Positions 2,524 to 5,372 of a stretch of 56,221 bases of DNA are shown in pieces. This DNA comes from Endomicrobium sp. (GTDB taxonomy: Bacteria; Elusimicrobiota; Endomicrobiia; Endomicrobiales; Endomicrobiaceae). A model generated the notes under the pieces. The model worked only from the letters and a program-made list of their open reading frames with translations. It did not search any database and was not told where the DNA came from. Location: NCBI GenBank assembly GCA_031266185.1, contig JAISBM010000013.1, forward strand, positions 1 to 56,221. Direction: 5' to 3'. The position numbers were made by a program, and so were the translations under genes. Position 1 is the stretch's first letter. Every line of letters starts with the position of its first letter.

Positions 2524-2818
2524 ATGCAATTTAAAAAGCTTACTATAAACGGGAAAAAGTATATTGAGTGTGAAAGTGAAATGTGTTTTAATAAAACAAC
2601 CTAGTTTTTATTAAAGGTACTAATGGCTTTATAATGCGTGGATATTTAAACCTTGAAAACTGCAGAAAAAGGTTGAGACATTGCAGCTATCGTAATTTGG
2701 CATTAAAAATATTGACAATATGCTAACAAAGACAATAATAGCATCTACTTCTTTTGCTCAAAAAATTGGCATAAAATCTGGAACTGCAGTTTTAGATGTT
2801 CTTGAAAAAGTTGTTTGA
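2524..2818 (+). pseudogene. DUF1805 protein fossil with several frameshifts
   Basis: Pieces of a DUF1805 domain are readable in order across all three frames. MQFKKLTINGKKYIECE is in frame 1. FIKGTNGFIMRGYLNLENC is in another frame. GDIAAIV-like residues follow. DNMLTKTIIASTSFAQKIG and IKSGTAVLDVLEKV come last. The order and spacing agree with DUF1805 (YunC-like) proteins, which are about 90-100 residues, so this is one short gene broken by at least two or three indels. The function of DUF1805 is unknown. Its 3' end overlaps the start of the CDPS gene by about 23 bases, which suggests the two were once translationally coupled. Confidence 0.65.
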
Positions 2819-3542
2819 TTTTAAATCTTTTTTAAAGGGCTGGTTTATTATAAATAAAAATGTAACGTCAATAAAATTTGTTAACTCAGAATCAGAAAAG
2901 ATATTTAATTTAAAAGAGCACGCTTTATTTGGAATAAGTCCATTTAATAGCTATTATTCAGAGGATAATTTAAAAAAACTTTTTTCTTGGGCACTTAACA
3001 ATTTTAAGAAAATAAGTGTATGTATTCCAGACGGAGCATCAACATATACGCTTCAAGCAATTGGTTATCCTAAAGATAAAGCAGATAGGAAAACTAAAAG
3101 GCATGACAACAATTTAAGAAATAAGACTATAAACGCTCTTGTTGCAAATAATCTTTCTGAAGATGAAGCTAAAAGTAAAATGGTCTTTTTCACTGATCTT
3201 GCGCAAAACAATAAAAAATATTTAGAATTTTGCAAGCTATATGAGCAAATGTATGAAAATGATAAAAATTTTAGAGAAGGCTGTTTGTTGACTTCAAAAC
3301 ATGTTTTATCAGCTAAAGGTAATTCTGCTTGTGTAGATGAAAGAGCATTAAATTTTGCTGTTAAATACTTTCTTGCAGAACTTCCTTTATATTTAAATAC
3401 GCCTGACATTCTAAATGTTAGCTCATCGTTATTTGTATATAAAGATTTACCAACAGATTTTTTAAATAAGATATATAATAATGGACCATTTTCTTCATTA
3501 CTCTCTTTAAAACAGGGATGTTTAGCAATACAGTTTGATTAA
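2796..3542 (+). CDS. tRNA-dependent cyclodipeptide synthase (CDPS)
   Basis: The 248-residue protein carries the CDPS signature set. GISPFNSYYS (Ser48, Asn51) matches the nucleophile loop. IPDGASTYTLQAIGY and KADRKTKRHDNNLRN (Arg98, Lys99, Arg102) match the tRNA-binding helix. KYFLAELPLYLNTP (Tyr191, Glu195) and Tyr215 complete the set. S48, Y191, E195 and Y215 sit at the spacing of AlbC S37, Y178, E182 and Y202. These enzymes use two aminoacyl-tRNAs to form cyclic dipeptides in the cytoplasm. Asn51 resembles the NYH subfamily, but the residue after Tyr215 is Lys216 where that subfamily has His. The start lies inside the DUF1805 fossil, so the original start may have changed. Product identity cannot be predicted from what I see. 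Confidence 0.88.
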   Translation: MFLKKLFDFKSFLKGWFIINKNVTSIKFVNSESEKIFNLKEHALFGISPFNSYYSEDNLKKLFSWALNNFKKISVCIPDGASTYTLQAIGYPKDKADRKTKRHDNNLRNKTINALVANNLSEDEAKSKMVFFTDLAQNNKKYLEFCKLYEQMYENDKNFREGCLLTSKHVLSAKGNSACVDERALNFAVKYFLAELPLYLNTPDILNVSSSLFVYKDLPTDFLNKIYNNGPFSSLLSLKQGCLAIQFD

Positions 3543-3554
3543 AAAAGAGGAACT

Positions 3555-5051
3555 GTGAACAAAAAAACACAAACTACGATTATTGATAATATTTTACAAA
3601 CTATTCCAGGATGTGTTTATTGGAAAGATGTAAGTGGAGTCTACCTCGGGTGCAATCAAATGGAAGCCGAGGTATTAGGATTAAAATCTACGGATGAAAT
3701 AATAGGTAAAACAGATTATGACTTACCGTGGAAATCTATTGCTGGTACTCTACAAGAAACAGATCAAAGAATTACGAAAACTAAAATCCCAGAAGAATTA
3801 ATAGAAGCCCCTATTTTAAGTGATGGCAGAGCTTTAATTATGTTGACAAGGAAATCTCCACTTTACGATGACAAGAATAATATAGTTGGAATTATAGGAG
3901 TTTCAGTTGATATAACAAAGCTTAGAAAAAAAGAAGAATTAGAAAATCAATTAAAAACATATTCATATATTAACAATATTTTACAACGCGTACCAGGATG
4001 TATTTACTGGAAAGATGTAACTGGAGTCTACTTCGGGTGCAATCAAATGGAGGCCGAGATATTGGGATTAAACTCTCCAGATGAAATAATAGGTAAAACA
4101 GATTATGATTTATCATGGAAATATATTGCAGGTGTGTTAAAAAACACAGATCAAAGAATTATGAAAAGTAGGATTAGTGAGGAATTAATAGAATCTGGCA
4201 CGATTGCTGATGGTAGAACTTTAATTATGTTAACAAAAAAATCTCCACTTTATGATGACAAGAATAATGTAATTGGAGTTATAGGCGTTTCAGTTGATAT
4301 AACAGATCGTAAAAAAGCAGAGGAATTAGAGAATAAATTAAAATTACAAGAGAGCCTTTATTCTATTTCAAAACAAGTAGCACATGATATAGTTTCTCCA
4401 CTGTCATCTTTGAAAATGGTACAATTTATGAGTGCTAATAAACTATCTAAAGATGAAAAAAAAATTTTAGATTTATCTATTAAAAGCATAGAAACTATGT
4501 CTAAAACTTTAATAGATAAGTATATATACATAAAATCTAAAGGTAAAGGATTGCCTGTATTAGAAGATGATAAAGAAAAAGATATGTCCTTGGGTATAAT
4601 TTTAGACAGCACTATAGAAATTAAAAAGTATGAATATAAAACATATAAGGTCAAAATTAATTATTATCCAGATAAAACAATTGATTCTATATGCATAAAT
4701 GGCAATGATTCTATGTTTTCTAGAATGATGTCAAATATAATAAATAATGCTGTAGAATCGTTAGAAAACAAAGATGAAGGTACAGTAGATATTGGATATA
4801 TTGTAAAGCAAGACAAAGTAGAAGTTTATGTAAAAGATAATGGTAAAGGAATGCCAAAAGGAATGGTAGAAAAAATACTAAACCGTCAAGAAGTTGCAAC
4901 GACAAAAAAAACTGGACACGGTTTTGGGCTTGAGCAAATTATGCAAACTTTAAAAAATATGAATGCACAAATATTGATTAATACCCAAGAAAATGTAGGG
5001 ACTGAAATAAAGTTGATATTTAATATTGTAAACAAAAAAATGTGTAATTAA
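3555..5051 (+). CDS. Double-PAS sensor histidine kinase
   Basis: It starts with GTG 12 bases after the CDPS stop, behind AGAGGA. The 498 residues hold two PAS domains (about 5-130 and 135-255) that are near copies of each other, each with a YWKD..GVY.GCNQMEAE core and an IGVSVDIT end. A dimerisation/phosphoacceptor helix follows (VAHDIVSPLSSLKM, His277). Then comes a HATPase domain with an N box (NIINNAVESLEN, about 394-405), a G1 box DNGKGMP and a G2 box GHGFGLEQIM. No membrane segment is seen, so it should be a soluble kinase sensing an internal or diffusible ligand. No response regulator is adjacent. YWKD-type PAS kinases are common in host-associated bacteria. Confidence 0.88.
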   Translation: MNKKTQTTIIDNILQTIPGCVYWKDVSGVYLGCNQMEAEVLGLKSTDEIIGKTDYDLPWKSIAGTLQETDQRITKTKIPEELIEAPILSDGRALIMLTRKSPLYDDKNNIVGIIGVSVDITKLRKKEELENQLKTYSYINNILQRVPGCIYWKDVTGVYFGCNQMEAEILGLNSPDEIIGKTDYDLSWKYIAGVLKNTDQRIMKSRISEELIESGTIADGRTLIMLTKKSPLYDDKNNVIGVIGVSVDITDRKKAEELENKLKLQESLYSISKQVAHDIVSPLSSLKMVQFMSANKLSKDEKKILDLSIKSIETMSKTLIDKYIYIKSKGKGLPVLEDDKEKDMSLGIILDSTIEIKKYEYKTYKVKINYYPDKTIDSICINGNDSMFSRMMSNIINNAVESLENKDEGTVDIGYIVKQDKVEVYVKDNGKGMPKGMVEKILNRQEVATTKKTGHGFGLEQIMQTLKNMNAQILINTQENVGTEIKLIFNIVNKKMCN

Positions 5052-5084
5052 TATTTAAATTTTATAGTGTCTGAGAGAAAGTAA

Positions 5085-5372
5085 ATGCATGACTATATTA
5101 TATGGTTTATAGAGGGACTTTTTGGAATGGCAATGTTTATAAATGCTGTATTATTTTTGCCTCAAGCTATTAAAATACACAAAACAAAAAATACTAAAGG
5201 TTTATCACTTATAACGTTTATTGGTTTTAATATAATTCAGTTGTCTAGTATTTTACATGGATATATCCACAAAGACTACATTTTTATGCTCGGAATGCTT
5301 TTAAGTCTGCTTTTTTGTGGGTGCATTTGTTTTTTAATTATTTATTATAAGATAAAATATAAAACTACATAG
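5085..5372 (+). CDS. SemiSWEET-like PQ-loop membrane transporter
   Basis: The 95-residue hydrophobic protein has three predicted membrane helices (about 8-28, 42-62, 65-88). A PQ-loop motif LPQAIKIHKTKNTKGLSL lies after the first helix, which is the bacterial SemiSWEET layout. SemiSWEETs dimerise to move small solutes, usually sugars, down their gradient. It lies 33 bases after the kinase gene on the same strand and closes the CDPS-kinase-transporter group. Whether it carries a sugar or the cyclodipeptide is unknown; the second is only an inference from context. Upstream AGAGAAAGTAA gives a plausible ribosome binding site before ATG. Confidence 0.75.
   Translation: MHDYIIWFIEGLFGMAMFINAVLFLPQAIKIHKTKNTKGLSLITFIGFNIIQLSSILHGYIHKDYIFMLGMLLSLLFCGCICFLIIYYKIKYKTT

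Follow-up and report, generated by a model that had tools for sequence, protein, structure and literature searches.

A cyclodipeptide synthase gene adjoining a PAS histidine kinase in Endomicrobium sp., and a possible family of synthase-kinase proteins in protist endosymbionts

The locus and its gene products

The window analysed here, i.e. the whole stretch of 56,221 nucleotides, comes from an Endomicrobium sp. draft genome of 828 kb with 52% completeness, in which it is contig 15. Close to its beginning, three open reading frames on the + strand encode a cyclodipeptide synthase (CDPS), a double-PAS histidine kinase and a PQ-loop protein. Open reading frame analysis and Pfam searches placed them where a first-pass annotation of the same DNA had reported them. 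The features of the region are as follows.

282-2477, + strand: GH57 gene (Pfam PF03065, E 5.1e-64), outside the unit
2712-2739, + strand: promoter-like site upstream of the CDPS gene (TTGACA-16-AATAAT, 11/12; consensus match only)
2796-3542, + strand: NYH-like CDPS in which Lys occupies AlbC position 203 (Pfam, TIGR04539, AlphaFold2, homologues in relatives)
2850-2852, + strand: ATA codon where relatives start (DNA comparison; true start uncertain)
2937-2939, + strand: S48 codon (catalytic Ser37 of AlbC), invariant in alignment A7
2946-2948, + strand: N51 codon (alignments)
3366-3380, + strand: Y191 to E195 codons (Tyr178 and Glu182 of AlbC; alignments)
3438-3443, + strand: Y215 and K216 codons (AlbC Tyr202 and position 203; alignment A7)
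3555-5051, + strand: double-PAS ('YWKD') histidine kinase of 498 aa without receiver domain (Pfam PAS_4 twice, HATPase_c)
4383-4385, + strand: candidate phospho-acceptor His277, in an H-box assigned by reading; conserved in relatives
5085-5372, + strand: PQ-loop (SemiSWEET-like) small membrane protein (Pfam PF04193, E 3.3e-8; family alignment A10)

The CDPS and kinase genes are separated by 12 bases, in agreement with the earlier count, and the kinase and PQ-loop genes by 33 bases; a consensus-type search of the region found no terminator-like site between the three. The promoter-like match is not specific, since 24 such sites were found against 18.6 expected. On the 5' side of the CDPS gene, a short + strand frame (MLTKTIIASTSFAQKIGIKSGTAVLDVLEKVV, about 2722-2818 of the window) is similar to the beginning of an HU-type DNA-binding protein and is perhaps the remnant of such a gene.

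The first protein matched Pfam PF16715 over residues 30-230 (E 5.8e-50) and TIGR04539 (E 1.4e-54). An AlphaFold2 model of the window CDPS with eight relatives reached pLDDT 84.1 and pTM 0.80, and its best PDB folds according to Foldseek were NYH-type CDPSs, YvmC being the first (E 8.6e-18, TM about 0.8); both the profile and the Rossmann-type fold of a cyclodipeptide synthase are thus present. All four residues described as catalytic in these enzymes (Ser37, Tyr178, Glu182 and Tyr202 of AlbC; PMC7566563) were retained in our alignments, as S48, Y191, E195 and Y215, and N51 corresponded to Asn40. Fold and equivalents of these five residues are therefore common to the window CDPS and the NYH enzymes AlbC, YvmC and Rv2275, whereas the clade of the window protein has Lys at position 203. 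In alignment A7, this Lys extended across the whole Endomicrobiellum/Holosporaceae-order clade, and the homologues from Legionella lytica and Streptomyces had His. The window protein and its relatives consequently carry Asn-Tyr-Lys, which is neither the NYH (Asn40-Tyr202-His203) nor the XYP (X40-Tyr202-Pro203) combination. In a phylogenetic tree, eight Endomicrobiellum and four Holosporaceae-order CDPSs clustered together (support 97/97), apart from those of Legionella and Streptomyces, and a branch separated the sequences of the two groups from each other. Substrate assignment from the P1/P2 pocket was attempted and rejected: the P1 residues, by alignment roughly L-G-C-P-F-L-Y-F, agree with none of the motifs that the text of PMC5816076 tabulates, and no product is therefore predicted.

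The CDPS gene had been described as intact. Its frame is indeed open and its catalytic residues are present, but the codon at which relatives start (ATG in G020, G026 and G009, probably GTG in G030) is ATA in the window. An in-frame ATG is found 18 codons further upstream, at 2796; counted from it, residues 1-19 were modelled with pLDDT below 50. The ATA may represent i) an assembly error, ii) a sign that the upstream start is in use, or iii) the onset of decay. Between the window and G030, dN/dS was 0.36 for the CDPS and 0.25 for the kinase, other pairs within the genus giving 0.12-0.27; over the genus as a whole the values (0.12-0.36 for the CDPS, 0.19-0.27 for the kinase) indicate constraint at the protein level. 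The ratio for the PQ-loop gene was noisy (95 codons) and was left out of the evidence. One congeneric CDPS frame (L021 801-1799, G033:C17) carries an unrelated N-terminal extension of about 85 residues, and at the usual position no start is evident.

As for the kinase, the PAS input and HATPase_c domains of a sensor histidine kinase were both recognised by Pfam. Pfam HisKA was not called, and the H-box (VAHDIVSPLSSL), whose His277 is kept in relatives, was assigned by reading. A single response-regulator match was detected in the 52%-complete draft genome of the window.

The third protein had been called SemiSWEET-like. Its PQ-loop domain (PF04193) supports this and its nearest solved structure is the SemiSWEET sugar transporter 4x5m (E 1.5e-7), of similar length, but it scored only 32.9 bits against the 80-bit cut-off of NCBIfam SemiSWEET_2. 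Moreover, the Trp and Asn of 4x5m, which we take to be the sugar-binding-site residues of SemiSWEET, are aligned with Ser and Met in the window protein.

Linkage of synthase, kinase and PQ-loop genes

When relatives were searched for CDPSs, 12/100 genomes matched, decayed copies included, and all of them belonged to one genus, for which the comparison set comprised 42 genomes (that of the window, G000, and 41 congeners). Congeners in which CDPS loci were found go by the name of Candidatus Endomicrobiellum or Endomicrobium; Endomicrobiellum are endosymbionts of termite-gut flagellates (PMC11257099). The same kinase gene came next, on the same strand, in 7/7 long CDPS frames whose contig continues. 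These seven loci were those of G000, G030, G020, G009, G026, G033 and G005, and decayed pairs were present in G017, G019 and G021. Five genomes (G000, G030, G020, G017 and G040) share a single syntenic GH57-CDPS-kinase-PQ locus, the GH57 gene being the syntenic flank in the four other than the window; at this locus both CDPS and kinase are decayed in G017. A second locus is common to G009, G026 and G011, and a third to G014, G021 and G005:C6; CDPS-kinase pairs are found in the genus at several chromosomal sites unrelated to one another. The decay of CDPS and kinase in several relatives, together with the drift of the window start codon to ATA, indicates that these bacteria can do without the unit.

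The PQ-loop gene accompanies the CDPS-kinase unit in the window, in two relatives, in one decayed relative and in two Holosporaceae-order loci, and no PQ-loop gene adjoins the pair in G009 and G026. In three further genomes (G014, G005 and G023; loci L080, L081 and L084), it lies between nadE-like and polyamine/carboxynorspermidine-type genes (names by reading), without kinase or synthase. Its frame also stays open in G017, where CDPS and kinase are decayed, and in G040, where the CDPS is gone. As it occurs apart from the pair and outlives it, the PQ-loop gene can be regarded as a recurrent partner but not an obligatory one.

Linkage was also found outside the genus. In the alphaproteobacterium Holosporaceae bacterium Kf353_bin128, PQ-loop, CDPS and kinase genes follow one another on one strand within about 2.5 kb, in an order that differs from that of the window. 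PF16715 detected CDPSs in 3/50 Holosporaceae-order genomes, and two of the frames combined CDPS, PAS_4 and HATPase_c in a single open reading frame (G122, 747 aa; G112, 718 aa). The G122 fusion, at L104 6655-8877, retains every catalytic CDPS residue (alignment A7). In the G112 fusion (L106, G112:C2), Cys replaces Tyr202, unlike in other Asn-Tyr-Lys CDPSs, and the resulting Asn-Cys-Lys likewise falls outside the NYH and XYP combinations. A PQ-loop gene upstream overlaps the start of this fusion frame, and the G112 genome contains a second copy of CDPS and kinase as neighbouring genes. On a Legionella lytica plasmid, the CDPS gene overlaps a gene of PAS-HisKA-HATPase-receiver-Hpt architecture. 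CDPSs are otherwise rare: an even draw of 398 Pseudomonadota genomes contained one with a CDPS, which was the Kf353 genome around which the sample had been drawn.

All kinase-linked CDPSs found in this analysis come from host-associated bacteria. In contrast, CDPSs of Streptomyces and Priestia plasmids adjoin P450, methyltransferase or metal-transport genes; where the window CDPS has a kinase, the Streptomyces tsukubensis and Priestia examples have a P450 or a methyltransferase. In two Streptomyces plasmids (L189, L192), the CDPS gene is preceded by metal-responsive regulators and immediately followed by a heavy-metal P-type ATPase gene, and a metal-binding cyclodipeptide is a possible product there.

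Conserved linkage in relatives, whose absence had been named beforehand as counting against a common unit, was thus found at 7/7 loci of the genus and beyond it. From the gene neighbourhoods and fusions, the view that CDPS and kinase form one unit is well supported. The wider claim that the trio is one unit fared unevenly: linkage in two phyla and the fusions bear it out for CDPS and kinase, and the link to the PQ-loop gene is real but looser.

Longer kinases with putative CDPS-related domains

The genus has many longer YWKD kinases, whose N-terminal domains are not matched by Pfam and are of two kinds, alpha and beta. When a beta profile (alignment A5) was searched against all PDB chains, it retrieved the XYP-type CDPSs 5MLP (E 2.6e-7), 9I5M, 5MLQ, 5OCD and 9IAM, and the only other chain up to E 10 was 8a22 (0.065). 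The link between beta domains and CDPSs comes from this search; when the Asn-Tyr-Lys CDPS profile was compared with those of alpha and beta by hhalign, no match was convincing. Beta domains match the XYP enzymes of Rickettsiella grylli (5MLP) and Fluoribacter dumoffii (5OCD) over much of their length, and in most members three features of these enzymes are retained, namely the Ser, the second 'LEE' Glu and the Tyr-Pro; the beta domains differ in being fused to a histidine kinase, in having Phe for Tyr178 and in escaping recognition by Pfam. With Phe for Tyr178 in beta domains and Cys for Tyr202 in G112, some fusions may lack synthase activity. The beta domain was present in 18/42 Endomicrobiellum and in 25/50 Holosporaceae-order genomes, in the latter mostly in frames of about 600-900 aa, kinase included.

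Alpha domains were found in 16/42 genomes of the genus. No Pfam or NCBIfam model reached its cut-off on them, and their scores (E 1.2e-3 against beta, 0.014 for TIGR04539 and 0.56 for 5OCD) are only suggestive: the alpha domain is probably related to CDPSs. A tblastn search of plasmids with alpha and beta domains returned nothing relevant.

Members of the PQ-loop family recur beside these kinases as well. They are located 5' of alpha or beta kinases at G026:C4, G009:C59 and G035:C33, and in decayed form at G009:C19, and upstream of the beta-kinase in 5/15 Holosporaceae-order loci fetched (L207, L208, L209, L212 and L213).

In the genome of the window, a beta (XYP-CDPS-like) domain runs off a contig end (G000:C16:5551-6324; L186 5533-6366), and remnants of alpha and kinase sequences lie on contigs C21 and C22. 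In G009, G026, G033 and G020, contig ends cut through many alpha/beta kinase genes. Such truncation is expected of multi-copy repeats, at which assemblies break, and copy numbers are therefore probably underestimated.

A proposed make-and-sense module and its alternatives

We propose that the trio is a make-and-sense module, in which the synthase is coupled to its own sensor kinase, and assign this a probability of about one half. According to this model, the CDPS would use aminoacyl-tRNAs as donors of two amino acids and link these into a cyclic dipeptide, and the soluble PAS kinase would respond either to the product or to the working state of the synthase; we infer that the kinase may read the cyclodipeptide itself. 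A response regulator encoded at another site would then receive phosphate from the kinase. The PQ-loop protein would be a frequent, dispensable accessory, most likely carrying the small molecule across the membrane. A likely use would be the signalling of amino-acid status or of symbiont density inside the flagellate host. The model is supported by the linkage within and beyond the genus, the fusions, the beta kinases and the PQ-loop genes near them, the constraint on both proteins and the rarity of CDPSs in other genomes. Weighing against it are the ATA codon and the decay of both genes in several relatives, the PQ-loop genes that stand apart from the pair, Lys at position 203 and the altered catalytic residues of some fusions.

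For the family as a whole, we lean towards the view that histidine kinases of one family, present in protist endosymbionts from two phyla, use the CDPS fold as their input module, either as a cyclodipeptide synthase and receptor in one polypeptide or as a sensor of tRNA charging. Three types of synthase would belong to the family, namely Asn-Tyr-Lys synthases, which stand alone or are fused, and the fused beta and alpha types; the PQ-loop protein would be a recurring partner.

The main rival to the make-and-sense module is that the CDPS domain is itself the sensor: it would bind aminoacyl-tRNA, the kinase would report tRNA charging or amino-acid starvation in the host, and synthesis would be secondary or lost. 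A CDPS and a kinase in one polypeptide need no diffusible product, the altered residues of some fusions (Phe for Tyr178 in beta, Cys for Tyr202 in G112) and the strong divergence of alpha favour this explanation, and these endosymbionts have lost many amino-acid pathways (PMC11257099). However, the window CDPS, its intact relatives and the G122 fusion keep all catalytic residues, and a recurring membrane PQ-loop gene fits the movement of a solute; we consider such a charging sensor rather unlikely. Less probable still is that the main target of the cyclodipeptide is the flagellate host or other symbionts nearby, with the kinase adjusting production and the PQ-loop protein exporting the compound. 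While the occurrence in host-associated bacteria of all kinase-linked CDPSs found here agrees with this, as does the earlier proposal of host action for CDPSs of intracellular bacteria (PMC2922099), the linkage is strongest to the kinase and not to the membrane protein, and fusions point to internal sensing. Finally, that the neighbourhood is inherited baggage of one ancestral insertion without shared function is very improbable: the single syntenic GH57-CDPS-kinase-PQ locus, with PQ-loop genes surviving where CDPS and kinase decay, would allow for it, but pairs also occur elsewhere in the genus and in another phylum, substitutions are constrained, and the fusions contradict hitch-hiking as the whole explanation.

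Autoinducer synthase genes beside a histidine kinase gene are known from CqsA-CqsS and LqsA-LqsS. The arrangement described here differs from these systems in its aminoacyl-tRNA-dependent chemistry, its soluble PAS kinase and its synthase-kinase fusions. One survey (Skinnider 2018, PMC5767969) has, in its relevant section, counted PAS domains with the non-biosynthetic domains that are most common near CDPSs, and has suggested quorum sensing. That section names no organism or architecture, whereas a defined family with a PAS kinase, a PQ-loop partner, fusions and members in two phyla is described here. Methyltransferase, P450 and ABC transporter domains have been described as fusion partners of CDPSs (PMC5816076), an earlier paper that covers CDPSs of intracellular bacteria and a role towards the host states that those it found had no fusions (PMC2922099), and neither 'cyclodipeptide' nor 'histidine kinase' occurs in the text of the Endomicrobia genome paper (PMC11257099). 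In the open-access full-text literature, to which our search extended, we found no report of a CDPS-kinase fusion; the proximity of PAS domains to CDPSs, on the other hand, was already known.

What cyclodipeptides do for the bacteria that make them is little understood, particularly in intracellular species with few secondary metabolites. A synthase fused with a sensor kinase forms a direct link between the enzyme and signal transduction, and brings the question within reach of tests on single proteins. Since half of the 50 Holosporaceae-order genomes contain beta fusions, which Pfam and NCBIfam do not recognise, a sensory system common in protist symbionts may have gone unnoticed. Our results suggest that symbionts of termite-gut protists make and read a small-molecule signal of their own.
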